NCBI GenBank assembly: GCA_937951625.1 | Contig: CALFBP010000071.1 | Location: forward strand, 1-39,488 | Direction of reading: 5' to 3' | Origin: an uncultured Thermoguttaceae bacterium | GTDB taxonomy: Bacteria > Planctomycetota > Planctomycetia > Pirellulales > Thermoguttaceae | DNA length: 39,488 nucleotides | Shown: positions 13,931-37,534 of the stretch, piece by piece | Position numbering within the stretch: the first letter of the stretch is position 1 | Layout: the number at the start of each line of letters is the position of its first letter | The notes under the pieces: generated by a model | Seen by the model: the letters and a program-made list of their open reading frames with translations, nothing else | Databases searched by the model: none | What the model was told of the DNA's origin: nothing | Position numbers and translations under genes: made by a program

Positions 13931-14671
13931 TCACGACCTGGCCGCGGACGTCAGCTCGCGGAAACTCTGGTCGAGGGCCTTGCCGCCCCGCGTCAGTTCG
14001 CTCACCGGCCCATCGAACACCAAGCGGCCTTCGTCGATGAACAACACGCGGCTGGCCATGGCCTCGACTTCTTGAAGGATGTGTGTGGAAAGCAAGATCG
14101 TCTTGTCTTGCCCCAGCTTGCGAATCGTTTCCCGCACGTCGTGGATCTGGTTGGGGTCCAGCCCAGCGGTTGGCTCGTCCAGGATCAGCACGTCGGGCTC
14201 GTGCAAAAGGACCTGGGCCATGCCCACACGCTGCCGATACCCGCGTGAAAGTTTACTGATCGGCTTGCCAATCACGCTGCCCAACGCGCACAATTCCACG
14301 ACGGCCTGAATCCGCTGTCGTTTGCGAATGGGGGACATTCCCCGCGCATCCGCGAAGAACTCCAAGAGGGAGCGAGGCGTCATATCGGGGTATAGGGGTC
14401 CGTTCTCCGGGAGGTAGCCCAATCGGGCTGCTCCTGCCAGGCGATCCGTAGCCATGTTGTGCCCGGCTATCCTGGCCACCCCCGCAGAGGGAGCTAAATA
14501 CCCAGTCAGGAGTTTCATGGTGGTGCTTTTTCCCGCCCCGTTTGGTCCCAAAAAGGCCACCACCTCCCCTTGATAGACCTTGAAACTCACGTTTTCGATC
14601 GCAGCAAAACCGCCATAGTATTTCGACAGCCCATCGGCCTCGATCATGGCCGGACCTTGCTGTGGACTCAT
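13931..14671 (-). CDS. ABC transporter ATP-binding protein (GldA-like)
   Basis: A 246-residue ATPase. The ATG at 14671 is chosen because GGAG lies 9 bp upstream; a TTG five codons earlier is unlikely. Walker A GPNGAGKST is at 42-50, the signature loop reads LSRGYRQR instead of LSGGQ (a form seen in GldA/CcmA-type drug and gliding ATPases), then Walker B VLILDEPTAGLD and the switch histidine in LLSTHILQE. It powers the permease fusion encoded immediately downstream, so the complex would sit on the cytoplasmic face of the inner membrane. It heads the operon, and the AT-rich spacer at 14672-15182 must hold its promoter. Confidence 0.94.
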   Translation of the reverse strand: MSPQQGPAMIEADGLSKYYGGFAAIENVSFKVYQGEVVAFLGPNGAGKSTTMKLLTGYLAPSAGVARIAGHNMATDRLAGAARLGYLPENGPLYPDMTPRSLLEFFADARGMSPIRKRQRIQAVVELCALGSVIGKPISKLSRGYRQRVGMAQVLLHEPDVLILDEPTAGLDPNQIHDVRETIRKLGQDKTILLSTHILQEVEAMASRVLFIDEGRLVFDGPVSELTRGGKALDQSFRELTSAARS

Positions 14672-15182
14672 GGTGACTCGCTCCAAAAAACGAAAACGTC
14701 CGACACTTGGTGAGGATCTTGCGTGGCTACTTGGGGCTTTCGCGGTCGCAGCCCCGGCGTGGGAAAGCCGCTATTATAACCTCCCCCATCCGATCTGTCA
14801 TAGACTACAAGTTTCACTATCTTAGCACATATAAGACTTCGTTAAACATTCATTACGCAGGCAGGCGCCAACGGTTCATCCAAGTGATGAATTTCGGATT
14901 TGGTGAAATGAACAAGATAGGAACCATAGAGCGGATCGAAAGACTTTAACAAGCATATTCCCATATTATGTACTTCTATTTAGTGAAAATATTACCCCAT
15001 TAATATGTATTTCCCTCCCCTGCCGATCTCGGCGACGCAGGAACGGGGTCATCCCGCATCATATTTTCCACAATCCGGACCAAATCATAGGCTAGAGTGG
15101 CGCGTAGGGACGCTATGCAGGAGGAATTTGCTCGGCTCAAGCTGCCCGGCCAGGTTCTTGGCCCCCGGAAAGGACCCCACCC
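14672..15182. other. 511-bp divergent AT-rich intergenic region
   Basis: It separates the ABC operon (minus) from cheB (plus) and should contain both promoters. Bases 14775-15010 are far more AT-rich than anything else nearby. It includes an inverted repeat ATATTA/TAATAT (14989-14994 and 15001-15006). No coding frame in it resembles the neighbours. AAAGGA at 15169-15174 is the cheB ribosome binding site. Confidence 0.6.
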
Positions 15183-17714: not shown

Positions 17715-20700
17715 TCAAAGATTGTCTGGACGATCATTCCGCGGCGCGAGCCAGACGACGACTTCGCCCGAGCGATCCGCGGTGGCACCAGCAACGGCGA
17801 GGCGAGTCCCGTCGGGCGAGAAAGCCAGGCAGGTCGCCCTACAGCGTTGGCCGTTGAGCGTGGCCAGTTCCCGGCCCGTGAACACGTCCCACAATTTCAC
17901 CTCGCACTCATAGCGAACCGAGGCATGGACCGAGCGGGTGGCGGAGGCCAGTGTTTTTCCATCCGGGGAGAAGGCCAACAATTCCACCATGTCGTGATGG
18001 CCCAAGAGCGTAGCCCGAGGTTCGAGGCTCTTGGCGTCGAAGAACTTGATCACCGAATCGCGGCCTCCGGTGGCCAGGATCGTGCCGTCGGGCGAGAAGG
18101 CCACGCAGCGGACGGATTTCAGATGGCCGGGGGCGAGAGTGCGGGGGCGGCGCGAGCCGAGGTCCCACAGTTGGACTCGCGTCTGGCAGGACGCGGCCAG
18201 GGTGGTTCCGTCGGGCGAAAAGGCGACTCGTTGATGTCCTTCGCAGTCGCCCGGCAGATCGAGAGAAAGCCGCCGACCCCCGGTCGGCACGTCCCAAACC
18301 GTGGGTTCGAGGATGGGAAAACCTGGGAAGTTCATGGGATAGCAGGCCAGCAAAGAGGCGTCGGGCGAAAAGGCCAGGTAAAAAGGGGCGCCGGCCGGCA
18401 GCCCGTACTCTTCGTGGTGGGCGCCGAGCTGGATCGCCGGTTGCTCGATCCGGGCCACGGAGCGGTTGGGCGAGTTGAGGTCGCAGAAGTGGATCGCGGC
18501 GTCGTGCGTGCCAATGGCCATAAGTCCCCGCGAAACGGAGACGGCCAGGCATCCGCACTGCTTGCCTGGCAATTCGATCGACGAGACCTGCCGTCCCGTG
18601 TCGGTGTCCCACAGGCGGACCTGCGATTCGCCGCCGGCGGTGGCAAGCGTTCGGCTGTCGGGCAAAAAGGCGAGGCCCGTCACCGGCCGGGACTGTCGCG
18701 GCAGACACCGGACGGTTCCGGTTTGCCAATCGCTCCACAAGCGAAGGGAACGGTCGCCAGCGCCCGTCGCCAGGGTCTTTCCGTCGGGCGAAACCGCTGC
18801 GCACCAGACTGCCCCGAGATGGGCGCCGAGCACCCGGAGCAAGTTGCCCTCGGTCGGGTGCCAAATGCGGATCTGGCCGTCATCGCCCGTGGAAACCAGT
18901 GTGGCGCCGTCGCGGGAAAATACGACCGATCGTACCGCGGCCTGGTGCCCGCGCAGGACTGCTTTGAGCCGAAGGGTTTCCGTCTGCCAAATCCGCACGC
19001 AAGCATCGCGCGAACCGCTGGCCACCCAACGACCGTCGGGACTGAAGGAGGCGGCCAGCACTTTCTCATGAAGGGTTTCCGTGGAGGCCAATTGCTTCCT
19101 CGTTCCGGGATCGATGATGCCGAGCACACGGCCATTCTTCGTGGAAGCCACGATGCGGCCATCGTCAGCCAGAGCGAAGGCCCGCCACCCCTCGACCGTC
19201 CAAAGGCGTGTGCCTGTGTCAGGGTCCCATGCCGAGGTCTTGGTGTCGTGTGTGTCCCAGTGGACCTCGCTGGCCAGCAAAGTCTTGCCGTCCGCGACGA
19301 AGCCTACCCAAGCAACCGGCAGCGTGAACGTGGTGAGCATTTGCAGCAGCCGTGCCTTGGACACGTCCCAAACTCTGACCGTCGAGTCGTCTCCCGCCGA
19401 GGCCAACAGCGTGCCGTCCGGGGAAAACGCGAGGAAGTTGACGTCGTCGCCAAAGCCCTGAAGAGTGCGAAGTTTCTGACGGCGCGCAACATCCCAGAGC
19501 ACGATGGTCTGGTCCCTCCCGGCCGTGGCGAGGATCGCACCGTCGGGCGAGAACGCCGCGCAATAGATCACATCTTGATGCCCATCGAGCGTGGTCCACA
19601 CGTTCTGGGTCGAGTGCCAGAGGTAATGCCAAGTGAAATCTCGCAGGTCTTCTTGTCCGGCGGCGGGGCCAAGCTGCTGGAGAATGCGCCGCGCCCCGGC
19701 CATTTCGCCAACTTCGTAGGCTTGCCAGGCCCAATGAACGTCGGCTGCGTAAACATGTCTGCGCAGGATTTTCTCGCGATCGAGCACTTGGAGCCGGCGG
19801 GTCTCGGCGAGCTGCTGTTGGGAGCGAGCGAGATCGCGTTGTCGTCGGGCCTCGTTGCGTTCGGCCCAAACCCAAAGGGTGCTAGCGGCCAGGCCGGCCA
19901 GCAGCACGAGCACCATGACAGCCGCAGTCATAACCACTGCGGCGTGTCGATGCGCCCATTTGACGGCCCGTTCCCACGAGGAGGGGCGTCGGGCTCGGAT
20001 CGGGCGGTCATCGAGGAACCGCCGCAGATCGTCGGCCAAGGCCTGGGCCGATTCATAGCGGGCCGCCGGGTCCACGGCCATGGCTTTGAGCACGATAGTT
20101 TCCAAGTCCACTGGAAGGTCGGGAACGATTTCGCGCGGCGGCCGGAAATCTCCCTCCAAGATTTGGTGGAGGAGCGTGTGGCGGTCGCTCGACCCGAAGG
20201 CCGGCTCCAGCGTTAAGAGTTCGTATAGCGTCGTGCCCAAGCTGTAGATGTCCGTGCGGTGGTCCAAAATGCTCCGCTGGCCTTGGGCCTGTTCGGGGCT
20301 CATGTACCGAAGCGTGCCAAGCACGTCTCCGGTCATCGTGAGGTTGGCCCCGGTTCGCGTCTGCGCCAGGCCAAAGTCGCTGATGAACAGCTTTCCGCTG
20401 GCATCGACCAGCAGGTTCGACGGCTTGATGTCCCGATGCACCACGCCCATTCGATGGGCGTGCTCCAAGGCCTCGGCGGCTTGAACCCCTAGCCGGACGG
20501 CGGAGCGGTAGAAGTCCCGGCACAAGGACGCCGCTCCGGTGCGGCTCCCCCCTTGCCACACGTTTCTAGTTTGCGGCGCAAACAAAGTGGAAATGGGAGC
20601 TCCGGCCTGCGTCTGGAGCAGCGAGCGGCCAGCCAATTCAAAGCAACTCGCCCCAATGGGGTCTTGCCCAAGGTGAATGCTGGCCGTGCTCCGACAGGGG

Positions 20701-21335
20701 TCCACCGTATGCATTTGCGTGTCGCTGAAGCGGCTGCGAAGCCCGGAGATGATCTGGGCCAGGGTCTGGCCCTCGATGTACTCCATGGCGTAGAAATGCA
20801 CGGCGCGCTCGCTTCCCACGGAGTATACCTGCACGATGTGCTCGTGGCGGAGCGAGGCGGCGGCCTGGGCCTCGTTTCGAAAGCGTTGGAGTTGTCGAGG
20901 GTCGAGCACGGCGGCAAAGGGCAGGACCTTTAACGCAACCCGACGGCGCAAAGAAATCTGCTCCGCCTCGTAGACCACGCCCATCCCGCCGCGGCCGATT
21001 TGCCGAAGGATGCGGTAGTCGCCCAATCGCCCCGCTGCCGGGGGACCTCTCCGCGCAGAGGGGGGAGAATCGGCGCTGGCTTCTTCTTGATTGAACTTGG
21101 GCGCGATGCGTTGGACAATCTCCAAGGCGTCCAAGCAGGAGGCCACTTCGTCGGCAATATATGGAAACTCCGCCAGGAGTTCCTCCCGGCTCAGGGTTTC
21201 GCCTCGCTCCATCGCCTCACGGTATTCCTTGATTCGCTGGATGACCCGAGGGTCCTCGAGCGACTGCGGCGTGTTGGTCTCGGCCGCCATCTGCGACGAT
21301 GCCGCTTGGCAGGAATCGTCATCAGGGTAACGCAT
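17715..21335 (-). CDS. transmembrane Ser/Thr protein kinase with C-terminal WD40 repeats
   Basis: A 1206-residue receptor-like kinase. The ATG at 21335 overlaps the sigma-factor stop by 14 nt and has a purine-rich stretch (GGGGGGAAAGG) before it. The kinase domain (about 105-445) shows the P-loop IGRGGMGVV, Lys136 in VALKV, the catalytic loop HRDIKPSN (300-307), DFGLA at 320-324 and YMSPEQ. About 75 residues (200-276), with no obvious kinase motif, are inserted between the N-lobe region and the catalytic-loop helix. A membrane segment (about 466-490) and a short coiled coil lead to about a dozen WD40 units (FSPDGxxLAxAxxDxxVxLWD) to the end, enough for two beta-propellers. The kinase would face the cytoplasm and the propellers the periplasm. 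It is translationally coupled to an ECF sigma factor. Confidence 0.95.
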   Translation of the reverse strand: MRYPDDDSCQAASSQMAAETNTPQSLEDPRVIQRIKEYREAMERGETLSREELLAEFPYIADEVASCLDALEIVQRIAPKFNQEEASADSPPSARRGPPAAGRLGDYRILRQIGRGGMGVVYEAEQISLRRRVALKVLPFAAVLDPRQLQRFRNEAQAAASLRHEHIVQVYSVGSERAVHFYAMEYIEGQTLAQIISGLRSRFSDTQMHTVDPCRSTASIHLGQDPIGASCFELAGRSLLQTQAGAPISTLFAPQTRNVWQGGSRTGAASLCRDFYRSAVRLGVQAAEALEHAHRMGVVHRDIKPSNLLVDASGKLFISDFGLAQTRTGANLTMTGDVLGTLRYMSPEQAQGQRSILDHRTDIYSLGTTLYELLTLEPAFGSSDRHTLLHQILEGDFRPPREIVPDLPVDLETIVLKAMAVDPAARYESAQALADDLRRFLDDRPIRARRPSSWERAVKWAHRHAAVVMTAAVMVLVLLAGLAASTLWVWAERNEARRQRDLARSQQQLAETRRLQVLDREKILRRHVYAADVHWAWQAYEVGEMAGARRILQQLGPAAGQEDLRDFTWHYLWHSTQNVWTTLDGHQDVIYCAAFSPDGAILATAGRDQTIVLWDVARRQKLRTLQGFGDDVNFLAFSPDGTLLASAGDDSTVRVWDVSKARLLQMLTTFTLPVAWVGFVADGKTLLASEVHWDTHDTKTSAWDPDTGTRLWTVEGWRAFALADDGRIVASTKNGRVLGIIDPGTRKQLASTETLHEKVLAASFSPDGRWVASGSRDACVRIWQTETLRLKAVLRGHQAAVRSVVFSRDGATLVSTGDDGQIRIWHPTEGNLLRVLGAHLGAVWCAAVSPDGKTLATGAGDRSLRLWSDWQTGTVRCLPRQSRPVTGLAFLPDSRTLATAGGESQVRLWDTDTGRQVSSIELPGKQCGCLAVSVSRGLMAIGTHDAAIHFCDLNSPNRSVARIEQPAIQLGAHHEEYGLPAGAPFYLAFSPDASLLACYPMNFPGFPILEPTVWDVPTGGRRLSLDLPGDCEGHQRVAFSPDGTTLAASCQTRVQLWDLGSRRPRTLAPGHLKSVRCVAFSPDGTILATGGRDSVIKFFDAKSLEPRATLLGHHDMVELLAFSPDGKTLASATRSVHASVRYECEVKLWDVFTGRELATLNGQRCRATCLAFSPDGTRLAVAGATADRSGEVVVWLAPRNDRPDNL

Positions 21336-21957
21336 TGCCCTTTCCCCCCAACAAACGCCTGACGCGGACCAAGCCGCGGACCCAGAGCTTCTCCACGCTT
21401 TCCACAGATCGGCCCAGGTGTCGAGCGACCTCCGGCAACGGCAACTTCTCAAAGTGGTGCAGAAAGATCACGCGACGGTGATCGTCCGGCAATTGGGCGA
21501 GGGCATCGGCCACGATCACCACCCACTCCTGGCGCACCGCCCGTTGGCTCGGCGTCTCCTCTTTAGCGGAAAGGACCGCGAGCGATTGGAAGGCAGCGGA
21601 TGATTCGTCGAGTTCCTCCTGTAACCGGCTTTCCAGACGCACATCGCGGCACTTTGTCCCTAAGAATCGACGCAGCAAATCGTGGATCTGCGACGCCAGG
21701 ATCCGTCGCAGCCAGGCAAGGAACTCCGCTTCCGTCGCGCCGCGGAACTCAGCAAAACCACGGTGCGCGCGCAGGAAGGTCTCCTGCACCATGTCGGCCG
21801 CATCCACTTTGCTTCGCAAGCGTTGATCGAGTTGGAGCTGGGCCAGCAACGTGAGGTAGTTACGACAACCTTCCAAAAGCCACCCCAAGGCCTCCGCATC
21901 GCCACCGCGAGCCATCGCCACCAGCGACTCATACGCCAAATGGTCGCCTCTGCCCAT
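21322..21957 (-). CDS. ECF-type RNA polymerase sigma factor, kinase-associated
   Basis: A 211-residue sigma-70 family protein with region 2 (DAADMVQETFLRAHRGFAEF) and region 4 (QLPDDHRRVIFLHHFEKLPL, then VARHLGRSVESVEKLWVRGL). Region 4 ends close to the C-terminus, so there is no long extra domain. It directs RNA polymerase to a specific promoter set. The 14-nt overlap with the kinase gene indicates coupled translation. In planctomycetes ECF factors of this type are typically encoded next to Ser/Thr kinases, and activation by phosphorylation has been proposed for some such groups. No anti-sigma factor is adjacent. The ATG at 21957 follows AGGAAAT. The likely trigger is a signal sensed by the WD40 part of the kinase (inference). 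Confidence 0.93.
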   Translation of the reverse strand: MGRGDHLAYESLVAMARGGDAEALGWLLEGCRNYLTLLAQLQLDQRLRSKVDAADMVQETFLRAHRGFAEFRGATEAEFLAWLRRILASQIHDLLRRFLGTKCRDVRLESRLQEELDESSAAFQSLAVLSAKEETPSQRAVRQEWVVIVADALAQLPDDHRRVIFLHHFEKLPLPEVARHLGRSVESVEKLWVRGLVRVRRLLGGKGNALP

Positions 21958-28464: not shown

Positions 28465-29193
28465 TCAGGCCGCGCCGAGGTCCATGTCGTCGCCGAAATA
28501 GTACTTGCGGGCGTCCTCGTTGGCGAGGACCTCCTCGGCCGTGCCATGGCAGAGGACACGACCGGCGCGGATGACGTAGCTGCGGTCGGTGATCTTCAGC
28601 GTCTCGCGGACCTGATGGTCGGTAATCAAGATGGCGATGCGTTCGTCGCGCAGACGGCGGATGATCGTCTGAATGCTGTCGATCGTCACCGGATCGATTC
28701 CGGTGAACGGCTCGTCAAGGAGGATGATCTGGGGATTGGAAACCAGGGCGCGGGCGATTTCCAGTCGACGTCGCTCACCGCCGGAAAGGGACATGGCGAT
28801 CGACTTGCGAAGGTGGGCGATGTCGAATTGTTCGAGCAATTCCTGGCAGCGGGCCTTGCGCTCGCGCCGGCCCATGCCCAGCAACTCCATCACAGCCAGC
28901 AAGTTGTCTTGCACGGTCAGTTTGCGGAAGACGCTGGACTCCTGGGCGAGGTAGCCCATCCCGCCCTCCCGGGCGCGGCGATACATGGGCCAATGCGTTA
29001 CATCCAACCCGTTGAGGGTGACCTTACCGGCGTTGGGTTCGATCATGCCGCAGGTCATGCGAAAGGTAGTCGTCTTGCCGGCGCCATTGGGGCCCAACAA
29101 ACCGACAATCTCGCCTGCATGGACCTCGAAATCCACGCCGTCGACCACGCGGCGCCGTCCGTAAACCTTTACCAATCCCTCGGCCTGGAGCAT
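28465..29193 (-). CDS. lptB: LPS export ABC transporter ATP-binding protein LptB
   Basis: A 242-residue ATPase. Walker A GPNGAGKTT is at 34-42, then the Q-loop in YLAQESSVFRKLTV, signature LSGGERRRLEIARAL, Walker B IILLDEPFTGIDP and switch ITDHQVRETL. The order and wording (ITDHNVRETL-like switch, FRKLTVEDN-like Q-loop, C-terminal YYFGDDMDL) are those of LptB and not of general branched-chain ATPases. It drives lipopolysaccharide extraction from the inner membrane with LptF/G, which are not in the window. Its presence supports a lipopolysaccharide-bearing outer membrane. The ATG at 29193 follows GGGAGG. It lies 174 bp downstream of the signal peptidase gene on the same strand. Confidence 0.88.
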   Translation of the reverse strand: MLQAEGLVKVYGRRRVVDGVDFEVHAGEIVGLLGPNGAGKTTTFRMTCGMIEPNAGKVTLNGLDVTHWPMYRRAREGGMGYLAQESSVFRKLTVQDNLLAVMELLGMGRRERKARCQELLEQFDIAHLRKSIAMSLSGGERRRLEIARALVSNPQIILLDEPFTGIDPVTIDSIQTIIRRLRDERIAILITDHQVRETLKITDRSYVIRAGRVLCHGTAEEVLANEDARKYYFGDDMDLGAA

Positions 29194-29367: not shown

Positions 29368-31245
29368 CTACCGCACGGTTCCCATGCGGGCGAAATTTGG
29401 GAAGAAGGGAAACCAGATTCCATCGGGGAAGCCGGGCAAGCCGCGGGTGCCGGGAATCGTGTTCCACGAATGGGGCCAGTAGATAAACAGGGCCTTGCCG
29501 ATCATCAAGTTGCGATCGACATAGTATTGCGGGCCCCGCTGTTCCCAAAGGCGGCTGTCCATGCTTTGCGCGCTGTTGTCGCCCAAGGCGAGGTACTGGT
29601 CCTTGCCCAAAGGGAACTCCACTTGCCTTCGGCGCCGGAACACTTCCCAGTGTCGGGGATCGGAAAAGAACTCGATAAACTTTTCCTCGAAATCGTCAGC
29701 ACCGTAAAAATGGGGAAACTCCCCCGGCGCGGCGTCGTAGTCGCACATGGTGCTGGCGCCTCGCTCGGCGATGTAGTAGATGTCGCGGAACAATTTCAAG
29801 TGACTGACCCGGAGTGTGGCTTGGCGCGAACCGATGCGTGCTGGTTCGAGGTCCGCCGTTTCGGGCCGGGAATCGTCGAGGGGCCAGTAGCTCGTGGGGG
29901 CGTCGAACTGCACCACCGTTCCATCCACCCACAACCACAGCTTCTGGTCGAAATTCGCGAAACGTACTTGGTGCGTGCCCCGTCCGCGGCATTTCGTCAT
30001 CGCGGTAGGCTGAAACTCTGGCAAGCCGTCGATCAACAGCTTAGCCTGGCCGGTGGCCAGATCGATCTCGCAACGAAACACCACTCCTGCCTTGACCAGA
30101 GCCATGAGGAACTGGCCCCTGCCCTGATCTGCCGTCAGCGAGCACTCCAGAAGCAAGTCGCCCACCCAGTGCAGGCCGAGCTTCTGATGGCCCAAACTCT
30201 TACCCAGCCCCAACGCCCGGCTCGATCGGTCCAACGCCTGACGCCACGAGTCGACCTGCTCCAGCCGGTTGCGCTCGGTGTTGTAGAACGCGAAGTCGGT
30301 GATCAACTGCGGAGGAATGCTTTCGGGCGACAATCGGCCTCCGCTTTGGAGCCGCTGCCAATGCGAGTAGCTCGGCACCCGGTGCTGGTAATGGAGCCAA
30401 GCCTCGCCCGGCGACCTACCGTTGATATAAAACGACTTCCCATCCTCCGAGGGTTTCCAGGCGTCGGGCTGTCCGGCAGGGGGCGAAGCCGGGGTCCAGC
30501 GGGGCGGCATTCCCTGACGCAGCAATTCAGGCACGACATAGTCGTTGTCATACACCGGCTGCATCATGGCCAGGATTTTGTCCGCCGGTTTTTGGATGAT
30601 CACCGGCTCTTGCTGGCCATCCGGCCGGCTTAAAAGGTCGCCGTGGCGGATGATGACCGTCTCGTTGGGGAGACCGGCGATCCGCTTGATGTAGTTGGTC
30701 TTCGCCCCCCCGGGGTACTTGAACACCGCGACGTCGAACCGCTCCGGGTCGCCAAACTGGTACGGAAATTTGGTCACGATGATCCGGTCGCCCGGGTACG
30801 AAGGATAGGACTTCCCCTGAGGGTTATTCGGCCCAACGTCCATTGGAAAACGACACATGGGGCAAGTGCCCGAGACGACTTCGTTGTTGGTCAGCCGGTT
30901 GGTCGGCTGTTCGACCTCGCTGCTGGCGTTGATCTGGTAGCAGTAGCCGCACTTGGCGCAGTGAACGTCCCGGTGTCGCCCCATCAACGTGGGCGCCATG
31001 GAGCCGGTGGGAATGACGAATGCCTCGGCCTCGAAGGTTCGGAAAAGAAAGGCAAGCACAAAGGCAACCACCACCGACTCGACCAACTCGCGAATCGCCG
31101 CGGCCGACATCCAAGCAGGCGAGGCACTTGGCTGCGCAGACTCTGGCCGCCGCGATTTCTGGCGAGGGTTCTCAGGAGTTCCCATACCCCCGACGGCCGG
31201 TCTAGCCCCAAAAGGGACAAGCCCTTCGTTCGGTCTTCTTTTCAT
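29368..31245 (-). CDS. signal peptidase I with zinc-ribbon-like and beta-rich inserts (copy 1)
   Basis: A 625-residue type I signal peptidase; common bacterial LepB is 200-350. The ATG at 31245 follows GGGGTG. A hydrophobic anchor (about 55-70) precedes catalytic Ser82 in IPTGSMAPTL. Within 15 residues comes an insert with CAKC (96, 99) and CPMC (128, 131), a likely zinc ribbon. The general base is Lys187 (NYIKRIAGLPNE). A long insert with the look of a beta-sandwich follows (ECSLTADQGRGQ, then HQVRFANFDQKLWLWVDG and LRVSHLKLFRDIYYI) before the GDN box LGDNSAQSMDSR. It should cleave signal peptides at the periplasmic face. It is 91 bp downstream of a divergent paralogue, with lptB next. All catalytic residues are present. 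Confidence 0.92.
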   Translation of the reverse strand: MKRRPNEGLVPFGARPAVGGMGTPENPRQKSRRPESAQPSASPAWMSAAAIRELVESVVVAFVLAFLFRTFEAEAFVIPTGSMAPTLMGRHRDVHCAKCGYCYQINASSEVEQPTNRLTNNEVVSGTCPMCRFPMDVGPNNPQGKSYPSYPGDRIIVTKFPYQFGDPERFDVAVFKYPGGAKTNYIKRIAGLPNETVIIRHGDLLSRPDGQQEPVIIQKPADKILAMMQPVYDNDYVVPELLRQGMPPRWTPASPPAGQPDAWKPSEDGKSFYINGRSPGEAWLHYQHRVPSYSHWQRLQSGGRLSPESIPPQLITDFAFYNTERNRLEQVDSWRQALDRSSRALGLGKSLGHQKLGLHWVGDLLLECSLTADQGRGQFLMALVKAGVVFRCEIDLATGQAKLLIDGLPEFQPTAMTKCRGRGTHQVRFANFDQKLWLWVDGTVVQFDAPTSYWPLDDSRPETADLEPARIGSRQATLRVSHLKLFRDIYYIAERGASTMCDYDAAPGEFPHFYGADDFEEKFIEFFSDPRHWEVFRRRRQVEFPLGKDQYLALGDNSAQSMDSRLWEQRGPQYYVDRNLMIGKALFIYWPHSWNTIPGTRGLPGFPDGIWFPFFPNFARMGTVR

Positions 31246-31336
31246 GAACACCCCAAAAACACTATCGTGTATCAACCAATGAACCAGCAAACCCGACTAT
31301 TTTACGGTAATGCAGTCCTCTTTGGCACTCCAACGT

Positions 31337-32764
31337 CTAGCGAATATAGCGAAATGCAGCGAGGTTCGGAATGCGGAATCGGCACCCTTTCCAAGTCACC
31401 TCCCCACCGAAGCCCAAGGCGAAAAGTGGCTTGCCCACGAGGGCCGTCAACTTCAGTCCGTCTCCACCAAGCCAAGTCCGACTGTCGTTCGAAAACAGGG
31501 GATTATCTCCCAGAACAAACCATTCCCCCCCATCATGCGACGCCAAACCCCCCAATCGCCACTCCTGTAAACCTCCGCGAGGCGCTTCGTAGTAAGCATC
31601 CCGGAAGACGCGGACTTGATCTAACTCGAGCGACACATCGGCGCCGCCGAGCGAAAACGGCGGGCGATCTGTTGGTCCACTCAGCTTTGCTCTCTCATAA
31701 GGATAAGCCGCAATCGTGCGGCCGGCGATCGCAACGAGGAACTGACGGTCAAACAAGGAGACGTCCACGCGTACAGGCAGCTCCTCGAAGAGGCGACCTT
31801 GCAACGGCGGGATCGGTAAGGAGCGGCCATTGAGAAACAAATCAGCGCGGCGCGACTCCGGATGAATTTTTGCGACAAACTCCGTTTCGCCGTCCACCGC
31901 CCGAACGTAGAGCCATCCAGGTCCCGAGGCCCTCAACCAACGGAACGTTAATCGCAGATCGTGGGTCGGGTGGATAGCGTCGGCAGGGACCCGCCGTCCG
32001 AGTTCCAGGGCTGGTTCGGTCAGAACCTCCCCCTCCAGCACTTGGTCTGGCCGGCTGGCAACGCGGCGCCAATGACGATAGCTGAGCCAATCAATGGCTT
32101 CGGGATTCGGGCTGGCGGCGTGAACAAAACGCCCTTGGCGGTAGGACCAGCGGCTTGCTGGGGAGTCGGGCCGCCATCGGGGGGGCAGGTGAAGGGAAAC
32201 TTGGGGAACGTACCGTGCGTCGTGTACTAGCACGGAGGTTGCCTCTTGTTCTTTCAGCGTCTTCCGCACGATCGCGCCGTTGATGTAGACGTCGCCGTCG
32301 CGGAGTGAGACGGTCTCGCCGGGCAGACCGATCACCCGTTTTACGGACCACTGGCTTTCGCGTCCGGGCGTGCGAAACGCCACCACCTCCCAGCGCCGTG
32401 GCAAACGGAATTGGAACGTCGCCCGGTCGATCACCACGCGGTCACCGCCCGACAGCCCCCATGCGGTCGGATCATTGGCTGCGTAGCCGCAATTCGGACA
32501 CACCGCTCTGGCTTCCGGCCCGCGCGGATTCCACCCTTGGACGAAAGGGAAGCCGCAGTCGCCGCAGACGATCTTCCGATGCGGCCCGAGAAGCGTCGGG
32601 GCCATCGAGTTGCTGTCGATTACAATGGGGACCGGCAGCCCATCAAGGCACCACGTTCGCAAGGCGATGACGCCGATCGTCATCCAGATGGCGAGTTCCA
32701 TTCCACGGCGAACAGCGACTGGCATGGCCCCGGCGCATCCCGATGGCCTGTTGGAATCCGTCAC
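31337..32764 (-). CDS. signal peptidase I paralogue with the same inserts (copy 2)
   Basis: A 475-residue paralogue of the neighbour. The GTG at 32764 overlaps the transporter stop as GTGA, suggesting coupling; an ATG at 32725 is the main alternative. An N-terminal membrane segment (about 23-38) precedes Ser53 in IDSNSMAPTL. CGDC (67, 70) and CPNC (89, 92) form the same four-cysteine insert, shorter than in copy 1. Lys142 lies in SVKRVIGLPGE. The long beta-rich insert ends in LELDQVRVFRDAYYEAPRGG, matching copy 1. The GDN box is altered to LGDNPLFSNDSR. Catalytic residues remain, so it is probably active but with different specificity (inference). It is encoded between an MFS transporter and copy 1. 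Confidence 0.88.
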   Translation of the reverse strand: MTDSNRPSGCAGAMPVAVRRGMELAIWMTIGVIALRTWCLDGLPVPIVIDSNSMAPTLLGPHRKIVCGDCGFPFVQGWNPRGPEARAVCPNCGYAANDPTAWGLSGGDRVVIDRATFQFRLPRRWEVVAFRTPGRESQWSVKRVIGLPGETVSLRDGDVYINGAIVRKTLKEQEATSVLVHDARYVPQVSLHLPPRWRPDSPASRWSYRQGRFVHAASPNPEAIDWLSYRHWRRVASRPDQVLEGEVLTEPALELGRRVPADAIHPTHDLRLTFRWLRASGPGWLYVRAVDGETEFVAKIHPESRRADLFLNGRSLPIPPLQGRLFEELPVRVDVSLFDRQFLVAIAGRTIAAYPYERAKLSGPTDRPPFSLGGADVSLELDQVRVFRDAYYEAPRGGLQEWRLGGLASHDGGEWFVLGDNPLFSNDSRTWLGGDGLKLTALVGKPLFALGFGGEVTWKGCRFRIPNLAAFRYIR

Positions 32765-34473
32765 TCCGGCAACGGCTGGTCTTTGGTTTCCGGTGCGAAC
32801 GGAAGCACGGCGATTCCCACCAAGAAGATGGCACACATGGTGACCCCCGCGTAGCGCATCGGCTCCTCGTATCCGTAAAAAACCCTATCGCTGAGCACGC
32901 CAAGCGTCGTCGGCCCCAGGGCTGCCACGAAGCGGGCGATGTTGTAGCAGAACGAAGTGCCCGTGCTCCGCAGTCGGGTGGGAAATAGTTCGGGGAAGTA
33001 GATCGCGTACCCGCCAAAGACGGAGAGCTGGAAGAAGCCCATCAGCGGCACCATCACGAAAAGGTGCCAGAATTCGTTCATCAGCAGGAAGGCCGCAGCC
33101 GTGCTGACCATGGCCAAAAAGAAAAAGATGGCGAAACTGGGACGACGCCCGATCCTTTGCGTCACCACGCTGAAAATGTAAATCCCGAAAAACGCCCCGA
33201 TGTTGAAGAACATCAAGTTGATGCTCCGCCAGAAGCCCAAGCGTCCGCCGATGGCCTTTTGGCGGGCGGCGATTCGGTCGGCGTGTTGCTCCAACTGTGC
33301 GGGCGAGACCTCGGTGGCCCCGGCCAAAAGCGCCGCCCGACGCGAGCGATCCTCCGCCGACTGGGCCTGTCGCCTCGGGGCGATTCTGTCCAGCAATCCA
33401 GGCGATTGCCCTGCCGGTAGGTCCAACAGCGAGAGCATAGCTTCAGCGGTCACCGGCTTGCCCTCTTCCCTCAACGTCAGGGCCGCGGCATAAAGCAAGC
33501 GGGCGTCCTGGTCGCGGGGTGTCGTGCCCAGAACCGCGGAAGGCGGGACTTTTTTCTGGATTTCCGGCAGCCTTTCAGGCAGGCGAGCAACCATGGCTAC
33601 GAACTCGAGGTCTTGCTCCGCTTCGCCCTGCTGCCGGGCCTCGTTTTCGAACTGTTTCGAAAAGATCGTGTGCGTCAGGTCGTTGCTAAACACGCCGATC
33701 CCCCACAAGCCGATGACGCCCGAGGAGGCCAAAATCATTCCGACGATCGTGTTTTTGCGCCAGCGGGGATCGCCGAACAATTCCCGCATCGAGCCAGCCT
33801 TCCGCTTCGGTCCGCCCTCACTCATCGCCTTCTGCCACCGCTCGGGCTCTTTGAGGCGGCTAATCACCACGATGGCCAGAAACGCTGGCAGAATGCCCAC
33901 GCCGAAAATCCACCGCCAGGCGCTGTGCGGGAGGACCCCACTGGCCGCGAGGTGTTCGAAAAGCATCACAATCAACGCCGCGGTGACGTTGCCAACTGCC
34001 GAGAGGGCTTGGAGCAATCCAAGGGCGGGCGTTCGGGCACGGTCGGGGAGGGCCTCGGCCACAAGCGACACGCCTACGGCAAACTGACCGCCCACCCCCA
34101 GGCCGGTCAAGAACCGATACAGCGTGAAATCCCACACGCTCACTGAAAACGCGGTCAGGCCCGTAAACACGGAGTACGAGAGGATGGTGAAGACCATGGT
34201 TCGGGCACGGCCGATGCGATCGCCCATAATGCCAAAGGCAATCCCTCCCACGGCCCAACCAATCAACAGGATCGAAGTGGAATAACCAGCGTAGCGGTCC
34301 ACGGCCGGGTCGCTCGCCGGCAAATGCAGCAGTTCCGCGATGGCGGGTTTGCGCTCCGCATTGAACAACTGTTGATCCAAGCAATCGAACAGCCAGCCCA
34401 GGGTGCATACGGTCAGCACAAACCAGTGATAGCCATTCAGCTCGCGGTACCATGGGCGCGGCGATTCCATCAT
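32761..34473 (-). CDS. MFS transporter with a large soluble insert between TM7 and TM8
   Basis: A 570-residue major facilitator protein. The ATG at 34473 follows AGAGGAG; the frame is open 40 codons upstream without a start signal. Motif A reads GDRIGRART (84-92), after TM2. RFLTGLGVGGQFAVGVSLVAE carries TM4 residues of sugar/organic-acid porters. After TM7 (about 243-262) there are about 140 hydrophilic residues (272-410, including QGEAEQDLEFVAMVARLPE and repeated Arg/Ala helices) before TM8. C-terminal helices are normal (YFPELFPTRLRSTG). Substrate unknown, probably a small organic solute. It begins a minus-strand run with the two signal peptidases and may share their transcript. Confidence 0.92.
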   Translation of the reverse strand: MMESPRPWYRELNGYHWFVLTVCTLGWLFDCLDQQLFNAERKPAIAELLHLPASDPAVDRYAGYSTSILLIGWAVGGIAFGIMGDRIGRARTMVFTILSYSVFTGLTAFSVSVWDFTLYRFLTGLGVGGQFAVGVSLVAEALPDRARTPALGLLQALSAVGNVTAALIVMLFEHLAASGVLPHSAWRWIFGVGILPAFLAIVVISRLKEPERWQKAMSEGGPKRKAGSMRELFGDPRWRKNTIVGMILASSGVIGLWGIGVFSNDLTHTIFSKQFENEARQQGEAEQDLEFVAMVARLPERLPEIQKKVPPSAVLGTTPRDQDARLLYAAALTLREEGKPVTAEAMLSLLDLPAGQSPGLLDRIAPRRQAQSAEDRSRRAALLAGATEVSPAQLEQHADRIAARQKAIGGRLGFWRSINLMFFNIGAFFGIYIFSVVTQRIGRRPSFAIFFFLAMVSTAAAFLLMNEFWHLFVMVPLMGFFQLSVFGGYAIYFPELFPTRLRSTGTSFCYNIARFVAALGPTTLGVLSDRVFYGYEEPMRYAGVTMCAIFLVGIAVLPFAPETKDQPLPE

Positions 34474-34868
34474 CGAAACTCCTCTCAGCCTTGTCTGTGA
34501 AGCGGGAGCAAAAAATGTGCTCCTGTGATAGCCGAAATCGTTGCGACTGGCAAGCGCCGCAGGTTTCGGCCCAGTCCAAAACGATGTTCTCAAGCGGTAC
34601 GGCTTCTGGCCGCCTCAGGGCGCAAAGAAAACCGCTTCCCCGGCAGAGGAGTGCAAGCTTGTCGGGAGCGGCAATCTCATCCCCCCAAAAGAACGCTTCG
34701 ACCCCGGGGGCGAGAGCGGATCATCGCTCGAATTCGGCGCATCCTTAGTAAGCCGAAAAGTCGGAATATGCAGGCCGTCGCGCCTTGAATTGTCTCGGAG
34801 CCTGCGCTAATCTGAACAGCTCAGGTCCCTTTTACCTGCCACTCTCCCACCCGCCATGGAGTCCTACC
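34474..34868. other. 395-bp divergent intergenic region
   Basis: It separates the MFS transporter (minus) from a Gfo/Idh gene (plus). A possible plus-strand promoter is at 34785-34813. The ribosome binding sites of both genes are clear at its two ends. Nothing else stands out. Confidence 0.5.
34785..34813 (+). promoter_or_regulatory. possible sigma-70-type promoter for the second Gfo/Idh gene
   Basis: TTGAAT (34785-34790) and TAATCT (34808-34813) are separated by exactly 17 bp, 55 bp before the ATG. The hexamers match the consensus at only four and three positions. Confidence 0.35.
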
Positions 34869-36844: not shown

Positions 36845-37534
36845 ATGTTAGACATTCTCGTGATCTCCCCTCATCCGGATGATGCCGAGCTTGGAATGGG
36901 GGGGGCTATCCTGAAATGGAAGGCGCAGGGCCTTCGCATTGGTATCCTCGATCTGACCAATGGAGAACCTACGCCATTTGGCTCACCGGAAATCCGTGCT
37001 GAAGAAACCGCCGCCGCGACCAGACTGTTGGGCATTGACTGGCGCGACAACCTCGGACTGACCAATCGGCGTCTGGAAGCGAGCCTCGATGCCCGGGCGA
37101 AATTGGCGGGGGTGATCCGCCAGACCCGGCCGCGATGGCTATTCTGTCCTTATTGGGCCGATGCCCATCCCGACCACGTGGCCGCCACCCCGCTGGTTGA
37201 GGCCGCCCGTTTCTGGGCCAAGCTAACGAAGACTGATCTGCCGGGCTTGCCGCATTACCCCGAGCGGATTTTCTACTATTTTTGCACCCATCTGCGGCTC
37301 GTGGCGCAACCCTCCTTCGTGTTCGACATCAGCGAGTTTTGGGAGCGGAAACTGGAAATCCTGAAGTGTTACCGCAGCCAACTGATCGAGGGCCGCTCGC
37401 AGGAGAGCCCCACGTTGCTGGATCGGATCCGCGATCAGGCCGCGTATTGGGGTTGGACTATTGGCACGCGCTACGGCGAGCCGTTCGCCAGTCGCGAGCC
37501 GATCGGTTTGACGCGCTTGGACGGATTGGTTTGA
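36845..37534 (+). CDS. bshB1: PIG-L family deacetylase, BshB1-like
   Basis: A 229-residue zinc-dependent deacetylase. The metal site motif is SPHPDDAELGMGG near the N-terminus, with the second part WADAHPDHVAA (about residues 100-110). DLTNGEPTPFGSPEIRAEE and the C-terminal TRYGEPFASREPIGL match BshB1, which removes acetate from GlcNAc-malate in bacillithiol synthesis. Other PIG-L enzymes act on different N-acetyl sugars, so the substrate is not certain. No BshA or BshC gene is in the window. The sulfatase gene starts 29 bp downstream, on the same strand. The start is the only good ATG; no strong Shine-Dalgarno is seen. Confidence 0.82.
   Translation: MLDILVISPHPDDAELGMGGAILKWKAQGLRIGILDLTNGEPTPFGSPEIRAEETAAATRLLGIDWRDNLGLTNRRLEASLDARAKLAGVIRQTRPRWLFCPYWADAHPDHVAATPLVEAARFWAKLTKTDLPGLPHYPERIFYYFCTHLRLVAQPSFVFDISEFWERKLEILKCYRSQLIEGRSQESPTLLDRIRDQAAYWGWTIGTRYGEPFASREPIGLTRLDGLV

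Follow-up and report, generated by a model that had tools for sequence, protein, structure and literature searches.

Within a 39,488-nucleotide stretch of contig CALFBP010000071.1 (assembly GCA_937951625.1, from an uncultured Thermoguttaceae bacterium; hereafter the window), two adjacent minus-strand genes, A and B, encode type I signal peptidases whose protease core is interrupted by a predicted concanavalin A-like (ConA-like) sandwich and a four-cysteine ribbon. They represent a variant of signal peptidase I that extends across the phylum, marked by a putative exported zinc ribbon and by a cap domain for which Pfam calls no family in the window protein. The reading we favour, at a probability of about 0.62, is that A and B are housekeeping signal peptidases with a mainly structural and docking ConA-like cap and a rigid ribbon flap, most likely around one zinc, and that B probably takes part of the substrates. 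Signal peptidase I is near-universal in bacteria, essential in E. coli and a pursued antibiotic target. Sampled genomes across the phylum carry a signal peptidase with this lectin-fold cap, often with a putative metal-binding loop beside the catalytic serine; the variant offers a testable entry into exported-protein processing in planctomycetes, whose envelope is debated, and bears on why Planctomycetia (which we take to be the class name for the named orders) tend to keep two such enzymes.

A preliminary description of the window, made from the sequence, had proposed tandem signal peptidase I paralogues of 625 and 475 residues with intact serine, lysine and GDN boxes, and motifs, family profiles and fold bore this out. 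Both proteins scored above the cut-offs of PF10502 (A, 100.8 bits, E 1e-28; B, 71.4 bits, E 1.1e-19; cut-off 22.9) and TIGR02227 (94.9 and 69.5 bits; cut-off 47), so that the core assignment is not a chance match. The catalytic serine lies in PTGSMAPTL in A (Ser82) and SNSMAPTL in B (Ser53), the lysine in KRIAGLPN (Lys187) and KRVIGLPG (Lys142), and both residues were invariant throughout homologue alignments A1, A2 (window A with 55 of 80 A-type references) and A3 (27 B rows, with L172, cut by a contig start, excluded). AlphaFold2 models were built with homologue alignments of 56 rows for A and 27 rows for B. Their predicted local distance difference test scores (pLDDT) were 85.2 (A) and 85.3 (B), and their predicted template modelling scores (pTM) 0.84 and 0.85, respectively; the A model was less sure at the membrane helix and serine region, with ten-residue pLDDT means of 56-78 over residues 41-90. 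In VIA-align searches, E. coli signal peptidase ranked first against both models, with Z 12.7 for A (166 aligned residues, 3.5 Å) and Z 14.7 for B (163 aligned residues, 4.1 Å). The genes and their parts are located in the window as follows.

32761..34593 (-): major facilitator superfamily (MFS) transporter, PF07690 112.6 bits, upstream of B, its stop codon overlapping the B start
31337..32764 (-): gene B, signal peptidase I paralogue, 475 aa, GTG start in the GTGA overlap, TIGR02227 69.5 bits
32657..32719 (-): B N-terminal membrane helix, residues 16-36, a helix in the model
32606..32608 (-): B catalytic Ser53, from sequence, invariant in A3
32465..32587 (-): B four-cysteine ribbon, residues 60-100, from sequence; C67, C70, C89 and C92 nearly invariant in A3
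32339..32341 (-): B general-base Lys142, from sequence, invariant in A3
31589..32251 (-): B ConA-like sandwich, residues about 172-392, from VIA-align rows; A-type sandwich profile E 1.6e-8
31478..31510 (-): B box E, GDNPLFSNDSR, residues 419-429, from sequence
29368..31245 (-): gene A, signal peptidase I, 625 aa, TIGR02227 94.9 bits, PF10502 E 1e-28
31033..31104 (-): A N-terminal membrane helix, residues 48-71, a model helix with ten-residue pLDDT means of about 56-67
31000..31002 (-): A catalytic Ser82, box B, from sequence, invariant in A1 and A2
30832..30981 (-): A four-cysteine ribbon, residues 89-138; C96, C99, C128 and C131 invariant in 56 A2 rows; hairpins in the model
30685..30687 (-): A general-base Lys187, box D, from sequence, invariant in A1 and A2
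29773..30588 (-): A ConA-like sandwich at the cap domain II position, residues about 220-491, C-terminal end RDIYY, from VIA-align rows
29551..29583 (-): A box E, GDNSAQSMDSR, residues 555-565, from sequence
28465..29193 (-): lptB, ATP-binding cassette (ABC) ATPase of lipopolysaccharide (LPS) export, next gene after A, TIGR04406 333.6 bits against a cut-off of 240

The organism's own genome (4.59 Mb, 105 contigs, 97.9% complete) yielded PF10502 matches in four stretches, all within A and B, and no short canonical PF10502 enzyme beside them. Since these are the only matches, A and B would carry general signal-peptide processing as far as PF10502 can tell. With the E. coli enzyme (LepB; PDB 3s04, 1t7d, 1b12, 9nlo) they have in common boxes B to E, the Ser-Lys dyad and the protease fold. 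The cap domain II of LepB is a different and smaller one, and its box B is not followed by a cysteine ribbon. LepB has two membrane helices; in both A and B a single N-terminal helix with a basic N-terminal side can be read in the sequence. The Gram-positive signal peptidases and SipA (PDB 4wvg-4wvj, 4n31) share the protease fold with B at Z 11.2-12.3, but the Gram-positive cap is much smaller according to passages of PMC4049620, and SipA is without the Ser-Lys dyad.

The long insert that the preliminary description had placed between the lysine and GDN boxes is present in A and B, and the models folded it into a compact two-sheet jelly-roll rather than a disordered segment. In A, ten-residue pLDDT means were 94-99 over residues 361-490 and 53-61 over 331-350, and the B model holds the same parts, namely core, sandwich and hairpins. 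The closest structures to the A sandwich in VIA-align were galactocerebrosidase 3zr5 (Z 12.5, its residues 471-668), CBM66 4azz (Z 12.2, 152 residues, 3.0 Å), galectin-like 1oq1, presumably YesU (Z 12.2), and ERGIC-53 3wht (Z 12.0); the B sandwich retrieved the same proteins at Z 11.0-12.0 (CBM66 4azz, Z 11.2). Across both models ConA-like structures thus matched at Z of about 11-12.5 over 150-175 residues, where rows at most one Z apart count as tied and no relative stands out singly. Foldseek was concordant for A and B, with CBM66 4b1m at a template modelling score of 0.66 (target length) for A.

The earlier reading of this insert as LamG/concanavalin-like accordingly held for the fold. By sequence, the window sandwich segment touched no Pfam family even at E up to 1. 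Among 33 insert rows one each touched PF06439 (E 0.0084) and PF13385 (E 0.14), and the sandwich could be assigned to none of the described families Laminin_G, PF13385 and PF06439. Searched against PDB sequences, the sandwich profile found a BT1760-type levanase best (E 0.034), then CBM66 4b1l (E 0.59) and 4azz (E 0.63), none significant. The C-terminal sandwiches of CBM66 and levanases (4azz, 4b1m, BT1760) share the fold of the insert and give its top, non-significant profile matches, but they are modules of sugar enzymes with about 10% identity to it. An ordinary Laminin_G_3 domain (PF13385) was rejected at an hhalign probability of 7.6% over 40 columns, against 88% over 66 columns for the PF06439 domains of the own genome (the 3-keto-disaccharide hydrolase domain, DUF1080); each value comes from one comparison, on alignments of 5 and 14 rows, and the two families themselves score 84.5% against each other. 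PF06439, the better of the two, is nonetheless a separate family, touched in Pfam by only that one insert row. The own genome holds 15 PF06439 and 5 PF13385 matches.

Domain II of the E. coli enzyme lies mainly between boxes D and E; because the sandwich is located there, we place it in the position of this cap. Passages of PMC4049620 describe domain II as a size-variable cap without a conserved sequence motif. In the fetched loci, the sandwich profile (33 rows) matched 214 frames, all with an S26 core, although the loci had been chosen around S26 genes and give a limited background for specificity; of the 41 S26 frames that it did not match, 30 were under 400 aa. Across 20 whole genomes of relatives, the profile matched 39 times, at one to three places in each genome; its only finds in the own genome were A (1.5e-44) and B (1.6e-8), and the remaining 37 whole-genome matches were frames of 426-830 aa, lengths compatible with A and B. 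A third kind of signal peptidase, 343-356 aa, was seen in two Planctomycetia genomes (L092:4107-5177 (+) and a 343-aa frame in L240), with a long hydrophobic N-terminal part resembling several membrane helices and an altered cysteine loop; neither frame matched the sandwich profile.

Soon after the catalytic serine, both proteins carry the proposed CxxC...CxxC insert (A, C96, C99, C128 and C131; B, C67, C70, C89 and C92), positioned directly between box B and the subsequent GDxIxV strand. The A model pairs strands 91-95/102-106 and 123-127/134-136, with C96/C99 and C128/C131 at the hairpin turns and ten-residue pLDDT means of 88-95 over 91-136. This predicted two-hairpin ribbon agrees with the zinc-ribbon-like arrangement that had been suggested, and its four cysteines are conserved as a set across homologues. 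We scored the box B-box D interval in 180 of 198 frames (18 were skipped as short or with boxes unmatched by the patterns, and some genomes occur twice, for example L050/L160 and L054/L168): 166 held at least two CxxC, one held a single CxxC (L092) and 13 held none. Six of these 13 have lost the loop (B-D spacing 36-51), and the other seven keep its usual length (86-109) with zero or one cysteine in total. Such set-wise loss is the pattern that would be expected of one four-ligand site, which is indirect support for zinc, not proof. The seven frames (L036, L037, L057, L063, L066 and L067 with no cysteine, L082 with one) provide natural metal-free controls.

The frame count, rather than the ribbon profile, is the unbiased measure of cysteine conservation, because the profile holds 36 of 76 segments preselected from 83 for at least four cysteines and its cysteine invariance is by choice. 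Against PDB sequences, the ribbon profile gave weak matches, first to ribosomal L37Ae ribbons (E 0.0006), then to a designed zinc finger and rubredoxins, and 27 of its 36 segments touched Zn_ribbon_4 at E up to 1 (best 0.0011). The window ribbon segment remained below the Pfam zinc-family cut-offs (best PF23903, 18.8 bits against 27), and no ribbon member rose above a cut-off in this comparison, which displayed cut-offs for the first member only.

Some homologues extend this loop. Frames L075-L078 (family f44) hold six CxxC between boxes B and D and L084 (f75) holds four, which would amount to up to three ribbons. All five multi-CxxC genomes (G106, G122, G195 and G088; G138 for L084) matched HZS_alpha (hydrazine synthase), which we take to mark anammox bacteria; G049, also of family f44, did not. 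For Kuenenia, passages of a 2010 paper (PMC2881027) list one signal peptidase I, with Sec and Tat components canonical except TatC.

Both inserts recur in planctomycete homologues, as the cysteine count and a survey of the phylum indicate. The P0001 search found a relative in 269 of 294 phylum genomes. When 16 of the 25 P0001-negative genomes were searched with PF10502, 14 matched, and in 11 of the 16 the halves of the family were split by a long insert within one frame; the sandwich profile found most of these split enzymes weakly (E 2e-6 to 0.005) and missed L196, L202 and L204. In an even sample, PF10502 matched 59 of 59 genomes, and among the matches listed 58 showed the split-form signature, counted as a partial PF10502 match in a frame of 378-1206 aa and not as a sandwich called genome by genome; the exception, G004, has a single PF10502 match on a 128-aa piece. 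The closest named relatives, among the best 80 of at least 538 confirmed ones that the named-genome scan covered, are Pirellulales assemblies. Long N-terminal fusions in stop-to-stop frames of 1243-1623 aa (L062, L064, L068, L070) were judged artefacts, as neighbouring long frames overlap in L064, L068 and L070.

The split between the paralogues A and B is old. A tree of 85 rows placed the 25 A rows and the 26 B rows each on one side of a branch with support of 100; it came from a quick search with SH-aLRT support only, on columns filled in at least 60% of rows, so that the inserts are partly included. Long branches occur in six rows, and L036 and L037, two long B rows, group together. Because each group includes Pirellulales assemblies (L094, L096), a Gimesia (L144) and an Isosphaeraceae assembly (L169), the duplication occurred at or before the common ancestor of these rows. 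The double copies of L064, L068, L072, L073 and L088 fell outside both groups. End branches are longer in B (window B 1.09, window A 0.38), and the A genes of G167, a genome of the same family, and of a Thermogutta sp. assembly are sisters (L035 with L100). B lies directly upstream of A in 47 of the 89 Planctomycetia loci with enough upstream sequence (11 further loci had too little room), and three of these 47 B frames are under 300 aa. A B gene is encoded elsewhere in the genome in G216 and G283, within the B clade of the tree, and a B-like gene by profile score in G167 (501 aa) and G274 (474 aa). Serine and lysine are intact in all 27 A3 rows, and box E is altered in one B copy, L097, which reads SEN for GDN.

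The minus-strand gene order in the window is MFS transporter, B, A and lptB; B and A are separated by 91 bp, A and lptB by 174 bp, and the GTG start of B and the MFS stop share bases as GTGA. The linkage of the MFS gene to B was not conserved in the neighbour scan of relatives' loci. An LptB-like gene, by contrast with the other eight window neighbour queries, each found in at most two loci, stands out: in 107 of 139 loci, from many families of the phylum, it lies on the same strand downstream of a long signal peptidase, with a gap of 0-490 bp (median 95). Two further loci have lptB at 836 and 2517 bp, and one locus lacked room. None of 23 loci with short signal peptidases had LptB nearby, on flanks of at most about 1.5 kb; this control is weak, because long-enzyme loci cut to like flanks, counted from a partial match, showed LptB in only 3 of 16 cases.

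In the housekeeping reading, one N-terminal helix would anchor each protein in the inner membrane, a topology suggested by the basic N-terminal side of the helix and by homology. Since the Ser-Lys dyad is intact, A (Ser82/Lys187) and B (Ser53/Lys142) would cleave signal peptides of exported proteins at the outer face of this membrane. The sandwich, replacing E. coli cap domain II between boxes D and E, would serve mainly for structure and docking, as a cap that lends stability to the protease domain and sets the enzyme against the translocon or another envelope protein, and the four-cysteine hairpin pair after the serine box, most likely around one zinc, would form a rigid flap beside the substrate cleft. 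A would be the conserved main enzyme, usually encoded beside lptB, and B a long-standing paralogue that changes faster, keeps its catalytic residues intact and probably processes some of the substrates. Several observations weigh against parts of this reading. Seven homologues keep the loop without any CxxC, so that a metal would not be indispensable; 11 S26-core frames of at least 400 aa, including the B copies of L036 and L037, lack a sandwich-profile match; and neither gene arrangement is fixed, since B is not upstream of A in 42 of the 89 loci and 29 of 139 loci are without lptB despite room, some holding only a second or divergent copy (L090-L092). The sole-copy count covers S26 enzymes that PF10502 matches. 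Moreover, about 30 of the 59 sampled genomes also show a full-length PF10502 match, mostly in short frames, among the matches listed; because many planctomycetes thus carry short canonical enzymes too, the long form need not be the general enzyme everywhere.

The preliminary description had suggested that such a peptidase could recognise glycosylated or matrix-bound precursors. A special system of this kind found no support in the sole PF10502 copies, the cap domain II position of the sandwich or the phylum-wide long form, nor in BT1760, whose sandwich shows that a CBM66-like fold need not bind sugar, and a glycoprotein-specific accessory system was ranked second because PF10502 matches nothing else in the genome and the form spans the phylum. 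The lectin idea of that description, in which the sandwich binds envelope glycan or glycosylated precursors and thereby selects or concentrates substrates, appears quite unlikely to us. Carbohydrate modules and lectins proper are among its fold matches (CBM66, ERGIC-53, galectins, legume lectins), the lptB link might point the same way, and passages of PMC6560043 report that CBM66 and the sandwich of a fructosyltransferase bind sugar. However, fold alone shows no function, the profile matches are non-significant (best E 0.034, CBM66 about 0.6), and the same passages report that the CBM66-like sandwich of BT1760, the top match, bound no ligand (levan, levantetraose), its authors assigning it a role in folding, solubility and stability. 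BT1760 is the strongest argument against a lectin role, and the universal presence of the domain in a housekeeping enzyme speaks for a general one; the carbohydrate-module company and the lptB link on one side and BT1760 on the other are not decisive. The gene order also invites the idea that A is tied to LPS export, its cap letting it act with, or come under the control of, the Lpt machinery, which would make secretion follow the assembly of the outer membrane. The frequent lptB neighbour of long enzymes and its absence near the 23 short ones speak for such a tie, but given the loci that lack lptB despite room, the weak short-enzyme control and the chance that conserved order is mere co-expression of envelope genes, we regard it as improbable.

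The four cysteines could alternatively make up disulfides or a redox site. Disulfides are common outside the inner membrane, where this domain is expected to lie, and the window ribbon segment falls under the Pfam zinc cut-off; nevertheless, the CPxCG-like knuckles at the hairpin turns, the contacts with Zn_ribbon_4, the L37Ae and rubredoxin sequences among the weak PDB matches, and the seven usual-length loops with at most one cysteine, as one four-ligand site predicts, make this unlikely. We give tentative room to another possibility, namely that B is a dedicated enzyme for a special exported set, or is drifting towards loss, and is not a second general enzyme. Its longer branches, its absence upstream of A at many loci, the three short frames and the SEN box of L097 are in keeping with this; the invariant serine and lysine, and the genomes that encode a B-like gene elsewhere, run counter to it. 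Least probable in our estimate is a bolder combination, an envelope-sensing protease whose lectin-fold cap would bind LPS, envelope glycan or the LPS-export apparatus while a zinc-stapled flap next to the active site gates cleavage, coupling secretion to outer-membrane assembly, with a flap of up to three ribbons in anammox bacteria.

In the literature, mostly outside subscription journals, we found no title or abstract describing the sandwich or ribbon inserts. A likeness by description only can be drawn to the chlamydial signal peptidase I (CT020), which passages of PMC1403754 portray as highly conserved within chlamydiae and strongly diverged from others.

Rfam and tRNA scans of the window gave no match, and the promoter and terminator scan found 1 against 1.5 expected and 9 against 7.7. 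The segment 11120-14686 (-) encodes an ABC transporter pair, which consists of an ATPase (13931-14686) and a protein of 904 aa in which ABC2 membrane and ABC_transp_aux (PF09822) domains occur; we take the pair to be reminiscent of gliding-type GldF/GldG systems. At 17715-21957 (-), a Ser/Thr kinase of 1245 aa fused to many WD40 repeats stands beside an extracytoplasmic function sigma factor, which scored 205.5 bits (cut-off 183.75) with TIGR02984, a subfamily specific to Planctomycetaceae. Finally, a BshB1-type bacillithiol biosynthesis deacetylase at 36845-37534 (+), with 200.2 bits against a curated cut-off of 182.5, hints at a bacillithiol-like thiol in this planctomycete.

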